A stretch of 64,000 nucleotides of DNA, from positions 1 to 64,000 of the forward strand of contig CALUHI010000012.1 in NCBI GenBank assembly GCA_944320405.1. Reading direction: 5' to 3'. Origin of the DNA: an uncultured Eggerthellaceae bacterium (GTDB taxonomy: Bacteria; Actinomycetota; Coriobacteriia; Coriobacteriales; Eggerthellaceae). This document shows, one piece after another, positions 18,176 through 23,777 of this stretch (positions are counted from its first letter, which is position 1; each line of letters begins with the position of its first letter). A program made the position numbers and the translations under genes. The notes under the pieces were generated by a model. That model saw only the letters and a list, made by a program, of their open reading frames with translations. It had not been told where the DNA came from and ran no database searches.

Positions 18176-20368
18176 CTATTTCGCCCCGAAACGACGGCAA
18201 AGCGCTTCGTTCGCGGCGTTTTCAGCAGCGTCGTTCAAGGGGACAAGCGCTTCGGCCGGCGTGCCCGTGCGGTTTGCACGGCGCTGCATGCCGCGCTCAA
18301 GCAGCCAATCCGCAACCTGGGGGTTCTTCGCCAGAAGGGGCCCATGGAGGTACGTTCCCAAAACATTGCGGTACAGCGCGCCGTCGGCATGGTCGTTGTC
18401 GTTGTTGCCGTGACCGGTCGACGAAATCACGCGTCCGAACGGGCGGACTCCCTCGCCCAGATGCGTGCGGCCAGCATGGTTCTCGTAACCAACTACCGGG
18501 CATTCCGCCAAAGGCGATTCCAAAATCACGTTGTCGATCAGACGGTTGCCCGATCCGCCCTCGGCACGCAACGTGGTCAAATCAAGGATGGAAAGCCCCT
18601 CCACAACGTCTTCGCCGAGCAGCCATTCGCGCCCGAGAATCTGATAGCCGCCGCAGATGGCAAGCAGCACGCCGTCGGCCTCAACAAACGCGGCAAGCTG
18701 GTCGCGCATGGCAAGCAGGGCCTCGGAGGCGAGCCGCTGCTCGCGGTCGGGGCCACCGCCCAAAAAGACAATATCCGCCTGGGAAAGATCGCATTCCTCC
18801 CCGTGCTTCACACGCCGGATTTCCACCGGAAGGCCGCGCGCGCGAAGGCGCTGCGCCAGCACGGTAACGTTGCCGCCGTCGCCGTAGAGGTTCAGCAGAT
18901 CGGGGTAAAGATGCATGATGACCAGCGGATTTTCTCCATTCGTCTGGACAGGCGCCTCGGAATCCGCAGCAGGTGCGGACACGTCCTGGACGGGCGGAAG
19001 AGATGCGCCTCCTTCTTCCTGCATGCGGGTCAGATCCGTGCGGAGGGCGGGAAGCGCGGTGTAGTTGGCAATAAGGTACACGTGAGCGCCACGCTCGTCG
19101 GAAGCGGATTTCGACAGCACGTCGGCAGCATCGGCAACCACACCGGCTTCCACACCCGAGTACTTCAGGCGCACCTGCATGTCGTTGGCGCGAATGCCGC
19201 CCGCGAACACGCGCAGGCCTTCCTGTCCGGCAAGCTCCTCGAAGTCGATGTCCCACAACCACGAGACATCATGCCCGTCGGCTGCTTTATCGTTGATGAA
19301 GAACGCGACCGTTTTGGGGCCCTTGTCCTGAAGGATGATCTTCAGGTTCTGATTGAAGCCCGTGGGGTTCTTAGCCAAGTTCAACAGCACCGAGCGCCCT
19401 TGCACTGCAAAGCGCTGCAGACGACCATTCTGCGGGTCGAAGTTGTCGATTGCGCGCTGAATGGCCTCAGGCGTTGCCCCCATCTCGAATGCCCCCACCG
19501 CAACCGCCAGCAGGTTGTACACCATGTAGGCACCGGTGAAAGGCGCTTCCAGGTCGAAGCGGACGCCATCGGCGCCACCTTCTGTCGCGCGCGACACCGA
19601 AAAGCGCAAACCGTCGACGCCAAGCGAAACGTCGGAGGCCGACCAGGCCCGCGCCGGACGCGCGAACCCGCACGACGGGCAATGATATTCGCCCAGCTGG
19701 CCGTACTGACGGTAGTCGTATTCCATCATGGAAAGACACTTCTGGCACATCTGCGCATCGACAACGGTGTTTTGCGCAAGGCCCATGTCCCCTTCCACGC
19801 CGAAGGCGAGCTTGGGGTTGCGCACGCGCTCGGCGATGGCAGCGCACAGCGGATCGTCGGCATTGAAGGCGAGCGTCGCCGACGGAGTTTTCTCCAACGC
19901 GCCGACGATGCTGTCTTGAATGCGGTCGATTTCGCCCATGCGGTCCAGTTGGTCGCGGAACAGGTTCAGAAGCACAATCAGACGCGGCTTGAGCTGGGGG
20001 GCCGTACGCGCAAGCCACAACTCGTCGCTTTCGATCACCGCAACGTCGGCGGGCTTTGCATGCAGCAACGTGGAAGCAACGCCCGAGCTCAGGTTCGCTC
20101 CAGCGCGGTTGCAAATGACGCTTTTCCCCGCGGCCTCCAAAGCATCAGCCAGCAGATTGGTCACCGTGGTCTTACCGTTGGTGCCCACCACGACGACCGA
20201 CCCTTCGCGCGCTTTGTCGGCAAGATGCGCGATGATCTGCGGGTCGATGCGCATCGCAAGTTTGCCGGGAAGGTTGCCCGCCGGTCGCTTGAACACGTTC
20301 CGCAAGCCCCATGTGGCCAACCCGGAAACCGCTTTCGCGCAGGTCAGTCGTGCGCCCATGTGTTTCAC
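18176..20368 (-). CDS. murT-gatD: Fused lipid II isoglutaminyl synthase, MurT-GatD
   Basis: 730 residues combining two normally separate proteins. The first about 455 residues are MurT: Mur-ligase P-loop VVGTNGKTTVTN (61-71), a four-Cys zinc ribbon (C208, C211, C230, C233) and a C-terminal DUF1727 part with DVSWLWDIDFEE. After a Pro/Ala linker (456-478), residues from 479 are GatD, a class I glutaminase: VFLGGGPDREQ, nucleophile Cys572 in LAICGGYQ, and catalytic His675 in GTYLHGP. The complex amidates D-Glu of lipid II using glutamine and ATP. In Staphylococcus the two are separate genes, murT then gatD; here they form one chain in the same order. Confidence 0.93.
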   Translation of the reverse strand: MKHMGARLTCAKAVSGLATWGLRNVFKRPAGNLPGKLAMRIDPQIIAHLADKAREGSVVVVGTNGKTTVTNLLADALEAAGKSVICNRAGANLSSGVASTLLHAKPADVAVIESDELWLARTAPQLKPRLIVLLNLFRDQLDRMGEIDRIQDSIVGALEKTPSATLAFNADDPLCAAIAERVRNPKLAFGVEGDMGLAQNTVVDAQMCQKCLSMMEYDYRQYGQLGEYHCPSCGFARPARAWSASDVSLGVDGLRFSVSRATEGGADGVRFDLEAPFTGAYMVYNLLAVAVGAFEMGATPEAIQRAIDNFDPQNGRLQRFAVQGRSVLLNLAKNPTGFNQNLKIILQDKGPKTVAFFINDKAADGHDVSWLWDIDFEELAGQEGLRVFAGGIRANDMQVRLKYSGVEAGVVADAADVLSKSASDERGAHVYLIANYTALPALRTDLTRMQEEGGASLPPVQDVSAPAADSEAPVQTNGENPLVIMHLYPDLLNLYGDGGNVTVLAQRLRARGLPVEIRRVKHGEECDLSQADIVFLGGGPDREQRLASEALLAMRDQLAAFVEADGVLLAICGGYQILGREWLLGEDVVEGLSILDLTTLRAEGGSGNRLIDNVILESPLAECPVVGYENHAGRTHLGEGVRPFGRVISSTGHGNNDNDHADGALYRNVLGTYLHGPLLAKNPQVADWLLERGMQRRANRTGTPAEALVPLNDAAENAANEALCRRFGAK

Positions 20369-20556: not shown

Positions 20557-20633
20557 GCGCCGTTACCTCAGCTGGATAGAGGGACTGACTACGAATCAGT
20601 ACGTCGGGGGTTCGAATCCCTCACGGCGCACCA
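20557..20633 (+). tRNA. tRNA-Arg(ACG)
   Basis: Acceptor GCGCCGT pairs with ACGGCGC, the anticodon loop CTACGAA gives ACG (A34 presumably deaminated to inosine to read CGN), the T-arm is GGTTCGAATCC, and CCA is encoded at 20631-20633. It has its own promoter just upstream. Confidence 0.96.
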
Positions 20634-20888: not shown

Positions 20889-22241
20889 ATGCTCTATCTG
20901 TCTCAGATGACGGGAAAACCCGTCGTGGACGCCACCGGCGAGAAGATCGGCACGATCTCGGATCTTGCCATCTCTACCGGCGAGGTGTTCCCCCGCATCA
21001 CCAGCCTGGCATTCCAAGGGCCGGGCAAGGTGCCGTTCATGATTTCCTGGCGCAAGTACGTCGGCAAATTCGATGAGGACGGCATCGAGCTTTCGGTGCC
21101 TGCCAAAGACATCCGCTTCAGCTATCTGCAGCCTGAAGAGGTTCTGCTTGCGCGCGACCTTTTGGATCGACAGATCGTCGACACGCAGGGCATGAAGGTC
21201 GTGCGCGTAAACGACCTCAAGCTTTCGGAATCTGGCTCGCAACTGCGCCTTCTGGGTGCCGAAGTTGGCACTCGCGGCATCCTGCGCGGGCTTTCACCCC
21301 TTTTGGAGAAAGCGGTCGTTGCCGCTGCCGGCCTGTTCCACAAGCGCATCGACGAGAAGCTCATCGCCTGGAACTACATGGACCTGCTCGACCGTGACCT
21401 TTCGGAAGTGCAGCTTTCCGTCACACACAAGCGTTTGGACGAGCTTCATCCTGCCGACGTTGCTGACATTTTGGAGCAGCTCGACCCGCAGCAGCGCGCC
21501 AACGTGTTCAAGCACTTGGACGACGCGCAAGCGACCGAAGCGGTGTCGGAGATGGAAGATGAGTACCAGGCCGACTTCATCGAAGACCTGGACGAAGCCC
21601 GCGCAGCCGACCTTCTGGGCAACATGGATCCCGACGACGCTGCCGACATCGTGCGTGACCTGTCATATGAAAAAGCGGAAACGCTGTTGCGCCTGATGGG
21701 CGTTGAAGACGCTGCCGAAATCCGCCGCCTTCTGGGCTACAAAGACGGTACGGCGGGCGGCATGATGACCACCCAGTTCGTCGCAGTGCACCAAACCGAC
21801 ACGGTTGGTCAGACCATCGAAGTGCTGCGCGAGCTGCCGGAAGACCACCCCACCGTTCACTACGTGTACGCGCTTGACGAATACGACAAGCTGGTGGGCG
21901 TGCTTTCGCTCCGCACGCTGGTTCTGGCGCGCGACGATGCTCTCATTCAGGATGTCATGTACGACGACATCATCTCGGTGCCGCCCGATGAAGAGGAAGA
22001 TGACGTCGCGGCCGACATTTTCAAATACGACATCCCCGCCATGCCGGTCTGCGACGAGCATGGCGCGCTTCTGGGCATTGTCACCGTCGACGACGCATGG
22101 GACGCCATCGAGGAGGACGTGAGCGGCGACAAGATGAAGGCGTCGGCGCTCAAGATCGTGGGTATCGTGGTGGCGGCAGCCGCGGGCTTGGGCCTCTACA
22201 CCCTCATATTGCTGCAGATCACCGGTGTTATTGGGAGCTAA
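20889..22241 (+). CDS. PRC-barrel / MgtE N-domain / CBS protein with C-terminal membrane helix
   Basis: 450 residues from ATG 20889. Residues 1 to about 80 and a second similar unit are PRC-barrel-like (VVDATGEKIGTISDLAIS; VVRVNDLKLSE). About 180-280 is the MgtE N-terminal superhelix (ELHPADVADILEQLDPQQ, NMDPDDAADIVRDL). About 285-410 holds two CBS motifs (YKDGTAGGMMTTQFVAVHQ; AMPVCDEHGALLGIVTVDD). One hydrophobic helix ends the protein. This is the cytosolic Mg2+-sensing half of MgtE without its five-helix channel. It starts 3 bp before the stop-to-start junction with an NRAMP-type transporter gene, so it likely senses Mg2+ for that transporter. Confidence 0.88.
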   Translation: MLYLSQMTGKPVVDATGEKIGTISDLAISTGEVFPRITSLAFQGPGKVPFMISWRKYVGKFDEDGIELSVPAKDIRFSYLQPEEVLLARDLLDRQIVDTQGMKVVRVNDLKLSESGSQLRLLGAEVGTRGILRGLSPLLEKAVVAAAGLFHKRIDEKLIAWNYMDLLDRDLSEVQLSVTHKRLDELHPADVADILEQLDPQQRANVFKHLDDAQATEAVSEMEDEYQADFIEDLDEARAADLLGNMDPDDAADIVRDLSYEKAETLLRLMGVEDAAEIRRLLGYKDGTAGGMMTTQFVAVHQTDTVGQTIEVLRELPEDHPTVHYVYALDEYDKLVGVLSLRTLVLARDDALIQDVMYDDIISVPPDEEEDDVAADIFKYDIPAMPVCDEHGALLGIVTVDDAWDAIEEDVSGDKMKASALKIVGIVVAAAAGLGLYTLILLQITGVIGS

Positions 22242-22244
22242 ACC

Positions 22245-23741
22245 ATGACGCTGGGTAAGAAAAAGAACGCCAAGGCGCTGCGCGCAACGCGGTCGAAGCA
22301 GACTGCGGCGCGCAAACCGATCTCGCGCATGAAGGGCAGTTCGGCAGCGCGCCCGAGCACCATCGCCCAGCACAAGGCGGGTGCGGCGGCGCGTGCGCAG
22401 TGGTCCCAGGAGCAGCAGCGCCGGCTCGCCGCCAAACAGAGTGCCGATGCCGCATTGGCAGAAAGCGCCGGAACCGAACTCGCCGAAACTCCAGTCGATG
22501 CTGCGCCCGTAAAAAAGCAGCGCAGCAAGCTGTTGTTGGTGCTCGCCGCGCTTGGCCCTGGCATCGTTACTGCCATGGCCGGCAACGACGCAGGCGGTAT
22601 CTCGACGTACTCCACCGTGGGTGCGAAATTCGGCTACGCCACCTTATGGGTCATCCCCGTCATGTGCGTGTTGCTGCTGGTTGTCCAGATGACCGCCTCG
22701 AAGATGGGCGCCGTCACCGGCAAGGGATTCGCCGCGCTTATCCGCGAGAGCTTCGGCATCCGCCTCACCGCGTTGGCGATGCTTGCCCTGCTCGTCGGCA
22801 ACGTGTGCACCACATTCTCGGAATTCGCCGGCATCGCATCGGGCATGGAGATGTTCGGTGTGTCGCGCTACGTGGCTGTGCCAGTGGCTGCCGTCGCTGT
22901 GTGGCTTTTGGTGGTTGGCGGCAGCTACAAGCGCGTTGAGAAAGTGTTCCTCATCCTGTCGCTTGTGTTTGTGACCTACGTGGTGGCAGCATTTTTGGCG
23001 CAGCCCAACTGGAACGACGCACTGCACAGTACTGTGGTTCCGCGCATCGTGAACGACCAGAGCTTCATTCCGCTGATCATCTCGATGATCGGCACTACCA
23101 TTGCGCCGTGGATGATGTTCTATTCCCAGAGCAACGTCGTCGAGAAGGGCGTTGACATGGAGGAGTACCCGCTTCAGAAGGTCGACGTTGTAGCCGGCAC
23201 CATCGCCGCCTGCCTCGTGGCGTGGTTCATCATCGTCACCACCGGCACCGTGCTGTTCCCCCAAGGCATCGAGATTTCTTCGGCAGCCGACGCGGCTTCG
23301 GCGCTGGCACCGTTCGCCGGCCCCTATGCTGAAGCACTGTTCGCCATCGGGCTTATCGCTGCGTCTTTCCTGGCAGCATGCGTGCTGCCGCTCACCACAG
23401 CATTCGTCATTTGCGAGGCGTTCGGCTGGGAAGCGGGCGTTTCGTTTAAATGGCGTGAAGCGCCGCTGTTCAAGAGCATCTTCACATTCATCATCGTGCT
23501 GGCCGCTGCGATCGTGCTCATCCCCGGTATCGACCTGATGACCGTGATGCTCACGGCTCAGTTTATCAACGGCATCATTCTGCCTGTATTGCTGGTGTTC
23601 ATGGCTCTCATCGCCGCAGACAAGCACGTGATGGGCGAACATCGCAGCGGCATCGTTTCGCGCATCCTCATCTGGGTGACGGTGGCCATCGTGACCATTC
23701 TCACCATCATTTTGCTCGTCATGCAAGTGCTGGGCATCTAG
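22245..23741 (+). CDS. NRAMP-related Mg2+ transporter (NRMT-like, SLC11 family)
   Basis: 498 residues: a basic, Ala/Lys-rich cytosolic tail of about 93 residues, then about 11 helices of the LeuT/SLC11 fold. The TM1 metal site, DPGN in true manganese/iron NRAMPs, reads GNDAGG (113-118), and the TM6 site, normally A-x-M-P-H, reads TTIAPWMMFY (284-293), lacking the soft-metal-binding Met. Loss of that Met is the mark of the NRAMP-related magnesium transporters characterised from Eggerthella lenta. Adjacent upstream is an MgtE-type Mg2+ sensor, supporting magnesium as substrate. It overlaps no other gene and is followed by a bidirectional terminator. Confidence 0.88.
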   Translation: MTLGKKKNAKALRATRSKQTAARKPISRMKGSSAARPSTIAQHKAGAAARAQWSQEQQRRLAAKQSADAALAESAGTELAETPVDAAPVKKQRSKLLLVLAALGPGIVTAMAGNDAGGISTYSTVGAKFGYATLWVIPVMCVLLLVVQMTASKMGAVTGKGFAALIRESFGIRLTALAMLALLVGNVCTTFSEFAGIASGMEMFGVSRYVAVPVAAVAVWLLVVGGSYKRVEKVFLILSLVFVTYVVAAFLAQPNWNDALHSTVVPRIVNDQSFIPLIISMIGTTIAPWMMFYSQSNVVEKGVDMEEYPLQKVDVVAGTIAACLVAWFIIVTTGTVLFPQGIEISSAADAASALAPFAGPYAEALFAIGLIAASFLAACVLPLTTAFVICEAFGWEAGVSFKWREAPLFKSIFTFIIVLAAAIVLIPGIDLMTVMLTAQFINGIILPVLLVFMALIAADKHVMGEHRSGIVSRILIWVTVAIVTILTIILLVMQVLGI

Positions 23742-23744
23742 CAG

Positions 23745-23777
23745 AAAAAAGGGGGGAGGACGCCCTCCCCCTTTTTT
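23745..23777. terminator. Bidirectional terminator between convergent genes
   Basis: A run of six A, GGGGGGAGG, a short loop, CCCTCCCCC and six T. The A- and T-runs on both sides let it serve the transporter (+) and the convergent symporter (-). Confidence 0.92.

Follow-up and report, generated by a model that had tools for sequence, protein, structure and literature searches.

The closest known counterparts of the locus analyzed here are the NrmT transporters and their gene neighbors. Shin et al. defined NrmT in 2014 and reported that most NrmT genes adjoin a homolog of the MgtE N-terminal cytoplasmic domain, for which they offered "cytoplasmic feedback regulation of transport" or an effect on metal chaperone activity as speculative roles (PMC4072509). 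The same paper describes Clostridium acetobutylicum transporters that worked without the neighbor, Ca_c0685 complementing alone, and a sole tested pair, that of Acidobacterium capsulatum, in which co-expression gave no further rescue and the NrmT mainly took up Mn2+, restoring Mn2+ transport (PMC4072509). The pairing and the feedback idea have been in print since then as speculation, and the main proposal of the first-pass annotation of the present DNA, that a detached MgtE sensor gates the adjacent transporter in trans, is a rediscovery of them; we found no later test of the NrmT-neighbor proposal in the literature searched.

The family has since gained a structural reference in EleNRMT of Eggerthella lenta, which transports Mg2+ by itself when purified. 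Its metal site keeps the helix 1 Asp, with Asn replaced by Gly and the helix 6 Met by Ala, and two His of helix 6b, where the proton-path histidines sit, are replaced by Trp and Asn; transport is proton-uncoupled (PMC8806188). A search of that paper found no mention of a partner gene. For MgtE itself, the Mg2+ ligands are E258 (Mg2), D259 (Mg3), D91 and D247 (Mg4), D226 and D250 (Mg5), D95 (Mg6), and E59 (Mg7) (PMC5882242).

The window, a stretch of 64,000 nucleotides analyzed as a whole, comes from an uncultured Eggerthellaceae bacterium, and the named genomes nearest to it are those of Candidatus Aphodovivens species, relatives of the gut Eggerthellaceae. It contains a sensor gene followed by an NRMT gene (Table 1), and the extent of the pair (20889-23741) and the 3-bp gap given in the first-pass annotation proved exact when the open reading frames were checked. 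As in the NrmT operons of Shin et al., a gene for an MgtE cytoplasmic domain adjoins the transporter gene, and the two would form a single operon, co-transcription being expected from this arrangement. Unlike the M-box-controlled nrmT operons of those authors, the pair lacks an M-box, none being found in the window at gathering scores or around both genes at E<=5, and no other Mg2+ riboswitch was found upstream of the pair. The window sensor also carries a PRC-barrel region and one transmembrane (TM) helix, neither of them described in the available text of Shin et al., where PRC and CBS domains go unmentioned (PMC4072509).

Upstream of the sensor gene lies a tRNA gene (20557-20630, + strand), and a tRNA-Arg(ACG) is similarly placed in several related genomes, which suggests a conserved locus. 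Further upstream, MurT and GatD, which ordinarily occur as distinct polypeptides, are joined in one open reading frame on the opposite strand (18179-20368, -): the MurT part comprises the Mur ligase middle and MurT_C domains, and the GatD-type part is a GATase_3 glutamine amidotransferase. Anti-phage defence models gave no match.

Table 1. Features of the sensor-NRMT locus and of two MgtA-sensor loci (window positions unless a locus handle is given)
Feature	Position	Strand	Remarks
Sensor gene: PRC region, MgtE_N, CBS pair, one C-terminal TM helix	20889..22241	+	450 aa; ATG at 20889, TAA at 22239-22241
PRC-barrel region of sensor	20889..21390	+	two Pfam stretches, about residues 1-167
MgtE_N domain of sensor	21444..21746	+	residues 186-286; includes E217, D249, D253
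CBS pair of sensor	21771..22103	+	about residues 295-405; includes D381, D402, D405
Plug-like helix running into single TM helix of sensor	22086..22223	+	about residues 400-445; G413, D414
NRMT (Nramp-related Mg2+ transporter), EleNRMT orthologue	22245..23741	+	498 aa; ATG at 22245, end at 23741; 3 bp after sensor TAA; basic N-terminal tail of ~90 aa
NDAGG metal-site motif, helix 1 of NRMT	22584..22598	+	residues 114-118
IAPWMM metal-site motif, helix 6 of NRMT	23100..23117	+	residues 286-291
Terminator-like hairpin between putative operon and convergent symporter gene	23751..23770		readable on both strands; consensus match only
MgtA-sensor locus	L094:1501-4226	-	NRMT-less genus
MgtA-sensor locus	L093:1-2070	+	NRMT-less genus

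The transporter is closely related to EleNRMT. It matches the Nramp family (PF01566, 280 bits), and among solved structures EleNRMT (7qia) is its best relative by a wide margin, with 740 bits by sequence and, in structure comparison, 86% identity and a TM-score of 0.90; against EleNRMT of E. lenta it is ~85% identical. The motifs TAMAGNDAGG and GTTIAPWMMF..QSN contain every EleNRMT site change: the Asp is kept, Asn has become Gly, Met has become Ala, and the helix 6b histidines have become Trp and Asn. The earlier assignment as an NRMT, made from the loss of the helix 6 Met, agrees with the published description of EleNRMT, and its statement that NDAGG replaces DPGN holds to the extent that the motif differs; the binding Asp is retained, and only P and N change. 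The protein shares orthology, metal site, and fold with EleNRMT (7qia; PMC8806188), and is predicted from this ~85% identity to be a Mg2+-transporting NRMT. Unlike EleNRMT, which was studied alone, it has a longer basic N-terminal tail (22245-22520, ~90 aa, strongly basic), a segment that differs greatly in length and charge from one relative to another.

The first protein of the pair had been read as an MgtE N domain and CBS pair with PRC units and a single membrane helix, lacking the MgtE channel, and Pfam, hydropathy, and the fold model all bear this out. Pfam recovers PRC in two stretches, MgtE_N at 100.5 bits, and CBS in two stretches, and finds no match to the MgtE channel domain (PF01769) in the 450 residues; by Pfam and hydropathy, the five-helix channel domain with its pore Asp (D432) is absent. 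A single TM segment, at about residues 416-445, emerges from the hydropathy scan, and the fold model renders it as part of one long helix (residues 400-444). In the PDB, the sensor core has a match of about 5e-39 to the cytosolic part of MgtE, and the sensor model superposes on the MgtE cytosolic domains at 1.5-2.0 Å over 227-245 residues. The NCBIfam mgtE equivalog cut-off of 232.75 bits is not reached (181.2 bits). Within the TM helix, L434, Y437, T/S438, L441, and Q443 are well kept. Packing of this helix on a partner through a one-sided conserved face was considered and set aside, the asymmetry in conservation being nonsignificant (p=0.74).

The window sensor shares with MgtE (2yvx, 2zy9; PMC5882242) the N domain, the CBS pair, and the Mg2+ ligands involved in gating. 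By alignment, E217, D249, and D253 correspond to MgtE E59, D91, and D95, and D381, D402, and D405 to D226, D247, and D250, so that all six cytosolic ligands are present. The first-pass annotation had counted missing acidic Mg2+-binding residues as evidence against its idea; the alignment with MgtE finds them in place, and the idea is not refuted. Across 18 diverse sensors, E59, D91, D95, D247, and D250 are acidic in at least 94%, and D226 in 56%, compared with a mean of 47% over the 46 other Asp/Glu positions of TtMgtE; columns that are at least 90% acidic comprise five of the six cytosolic ligands versus 3 of 46 other acidic positions (p=1e-4). The exception, D226 (Mg5), is replaced by Asn in most sensors from outside Coriobacteriia, as well as in each of the nine Coriobacteriia sensors from genomes without NRMT. 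Unlike MgtE, the window sensor has no channel domain, has an added PRC region, and has lost the E258 equivalent (G413), with the D259 equivalent kept (D414). These pore-side ligands of the plug helix are not kept in the 18 diverse sensors (E258 acidic in 56%, D259 in 50%), and E258 is mostly lost in 64 short Eggerthellaceae sensors and kept in ten long NRMT-linked forms. As read from the alignments, the sensing sites are kept and the sites joining the sensor to its own pore released, as a detached sensor predicts.

This ligand pattern bears on what the sensor would respond to. The CBS domain of MgtE binds ATP, which modulates its Mg2+-dependent gating (PMC5529423). CBS pairs in general are common nucleotide sensors as well, and the sensor could by this route set NRMT activity by Mg-ATP or energy state and not by free Mg2+. 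We consider this unlikely, given that conservation singles out the MgtE Mg2+ ligands and not only a CBS pocket. The same residues also weigh on the alternative raised by Shin et al., a metal chaperone or buffer, with the acidic sensor handing on Mg2+ or Mn2+: the N and CBS region is indeed highly acidic, and Mn2+ is the metal associated with the A. capsulatum pair. Cytosolic Mg2+ is, however, millimolar, which would leave a chaperone little to gain, and the conserved positions are the inter-domain bridging sites of a switch, making this alternative very improbable.

The sensor appears to have arisen from MgtE forms with a defunct pore. Most Coriobacteriia encode a longer sensor of ~600-650 aa. 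By hhalign (probability 99.3%, E 6.7e-21), the additional C-terminal portion of this sensor is an MgtE channel (TM) domain, which scores under the Pfam threshold. The GGNxGxQ motif and the TM5 pore Asp are missing from all long forms aligned, which makes it unlikely that the long form works as an ordinary MgtE pore. A tree built on the N and CBS region, whose deeper branches and long-branch rows are uncertain, nests the single-helix clade inside the long forms (enclosing clade 99/97), and likewise a helix-less pair from an MgtA-linked genus described below; since both lie inside the long forms, the pseudo-channel was shed at least twice. On the evidence of this tree and the motif losses, the window sensor is placed as a descendant of MgtE forms whose pore is predicted to be dead and whose Mg2+ sites were kept.

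A survey of NRMT genes alongside PRC/MgtE_N/CBS genes, which had been suggested as a check of the proposal, gives a consistent result. A scan of GTDB genomes yielded 80 sensor loci, and in all 78 Coriobacteriia loci not cut by a contig end the NRMT gene lies directly downstream of the sensor gene, in the same order, with a median gap of 7 nt (77 loci). This recurrence is far above chance. With NRMT called at E<1e-40 and the sensor at E<1e-90, 197 of 246 Coriobacteriia genomes have both genes, 3 have NRMT only, 9 the sensor only, and 37 neither (Fisher 8e-32, with shared ancestry left uncorrected); the three NRMT-only genomes are fragmentary drafts. Joint absence recurs in separate Eggerthellaceae genera and in genera of two other families, and the two genes were probably lost together several times. 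Because a single deletion can remove two neighboring genes, joint absence supports a unit and is no proof of function. Two loci (L095 and L098) retain a long sensor beside the 5-formyl-THF cyclo-ligase gene that follows NRMT in relatives and have no NRMT; the transporter appears to have been cleanly deleted.

The association extends beyond the class. Among 35 Actinomycetota genomes outside Coriobacteriia with an NRMT-like protein (called at E<1e-60), a full-length sensor adjoins it in 21, a sensor homolog lies elsewhere in 10, and 4 have none; about 20 Actinomycetes have a distant sensor homolog and no NRMT. On plasmids of Bacillota, Pseudomonadota, and Actinomycetota, six of the seven full-length sensors examined adjoin NDAG-type Nramps, in either gene order (Alicyclobacillus, Citrobacter, Arthrobacter, Mycolicibacterium, Streptomyces, and Rhodococcus). 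Incidentally, no sensor-NRMT gene fusion was noticed among the loci examined. In some Actinomycetota a small PRC-only protein (~200 aa) adjoins NRMT (G309:C123, G388:C18, G329:C57, and G378:C162), and in G309, G388, and G378 a long pseudo-MgtE sensor lies on a different contig from NRMT.

A second partner is found where NRMT is absent. In two species of one genus (G026 and G032), the sensor gene begins a few bases after that of the Mg-translocating P-type ATPase MgtA; the L094 copy scores 659 bits against TIGR01524 (cut-off 611), and the L093 copy is truncated where its contig stops. MgtA and NRMT share only their cargo, and the MgtA pairing thus ties the sensor to Mg2+ import independently. 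As a wide pattern the MgtA pairing was rejected, as it is seen only in these two species. A 261-aa PRC protein adjoins the MgtA-sensor locus of this genus. On a Nonomuraea plasmid (L118:5136-5672), a distant sensor homolog is followed by a DUF1003 gene in place of an Nramp gene, which suggests that the DUF1003 protein is another sensor partner in Actinomycetes.

Such changes of neighbor could also be taken to mean that the main target of the sensor lies elsewhere, for example in CNNM/CorC exporters, and that adjacency to NRMT reflects shared Mg2+ homeostasis only. CNNM/CorC are Mg2+-linked proteins with cytosolic CBS pairs, thought to be exporters or mediators of Mg2+ transport. Like the sensor, they place a CBS pair below the membrane; unlike it, they have an unrelated membrane domain (PF01595) and no MgtE_N. 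The source genome has two CNNM/CorC genes, some genomes keep the sensor without NRMT, and the sensor can adjoin an MgtA or DUF1003 gene. Against this stand the near-perfect adjacency and joint absence with NRMT and the fact that the neighboring partner gene changes with the importer present, and we regard a main target elsewhere as having very little probability.

The large PRC region shows high conservation, with column identity averaging 88% in Eggerthellaceae sensors. Together with the single TM helix retained in the short form and the small PRC-only proteins beside NRMT in some Actinomycetota, this would suit an assembly, stability, or localization factor, in which PRC and TM helix would chaperone or anchor NRMT, with Mg2+ sensing in a secondary role. 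Such a role is nevertheless doubtful, as NRMTs of C. acetobutylicum and E. lenta work without the sensor (PMC4072509, PMC8806188), sensors from other phyla have no TM helix, and the Mg2+ ligands would need no conservation.

We also co-folded the pair as a fused protein, with both reading frames joined in frame and the separating TAA read through. The fused AlphaFold model reached pLDDT 65 and pTM 0.46 with 39 paired rows, and pLDDT 83 and pTM 0.51 with 129 paired and unpaired rows, an alignment from which rows from plasmid records were left out. In both, the domains are well folded and the relative placement of sensor and NRMT is not confident, and the fused model was used for folds only, with the interface undefined. 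Since a dimer of the sensor may be required for the natural complex, the unsure placement neither supports nor refutes contact.

The source genome encodes one Nramp only, and no MgtE channel, CorA, or MgtA is detectable in its assembly (93% complete), which leaves NRMT as its only recognized Mg2+ importer. In the mechanism that we favor as the probable one, a membrane-anchored, channel-less MgtE relative senses Mg2+ and acts as a regulatory subunit of NRMT, restraining transport in trans; we infer that the sensor binds Mg2+, that it touches NRMT, and that its effect is inhibitory. NRMT, being proton-uncoupled, would let Mg2+ in down its gradient, and the N domain and CBS pair of the sensor would bind Mg2+, and perhaps ATP. 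At high cytosolic Mg2+, the sensor may take up a compact, Mg2+-bound form that restrains NRMT in trans, as the cytosolic domain of MgtE closes its own pore. The sensor is dispensable for transport, yet it is kept with NRMT and with intact Mg2+ sites, so a brake fits better than a required subunit, and with NRMT as the only recognized Mg2+ importer in the genome, the brake should act on NRMT. That NRMTs work without the sensor fits a brake and proves nothing, and the 2014 co-expression experiment, which looked for improved rescue only, would not have revealed a brake.

Trans gating, as put forward in the first-pass annotation, gains from the kept ligands, the co-occurrence, the pseudo-channel ancestry, and the MgtA swap, and gains nothing from the co-folds (pTM 0.46 and 0.51); it is plausible, and better supported than before. 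Its weak points are the variation at D226, the large conserved PRC region without an assigned role, the sensor-only genomes, and the interface, which is not confident. The present analysis adds the pseudo-channel ancestry, the Mg2+-ligand pattern, and the MgtA partner to the earlier proposal, and as far as we found in the literature searched, the pseudo-channel origin and the MgtA partner swap are undescribed. A wider reading, which we advance more tentatively, is that the MgtE gate sensor is a portable subunit, with pore-dead forms in Actinomycetota and the channel shed at least twice in Coriobacteriia, that may serve unrelated Mg2+ importers, NRMT in most lineages and MgtA in one, and, counting MgtE, three transporter folds.

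The pair touches on the question of how proton-uncoupled NRMTs in an inward Mg2+ gradient avoid overloading the cell, and the role of the neighboring protein has been asked about since 2014. A feedback valve is a likely answer, if not a proven one. For EleNRMT, a structure is available along with a transport assay, and the single-helix sensor occurs in its family, which makes the proposal directly testable with the partner added. If trans gating holds true, the built-in sensor of a channel can outlive that channel and pass to other transporters.
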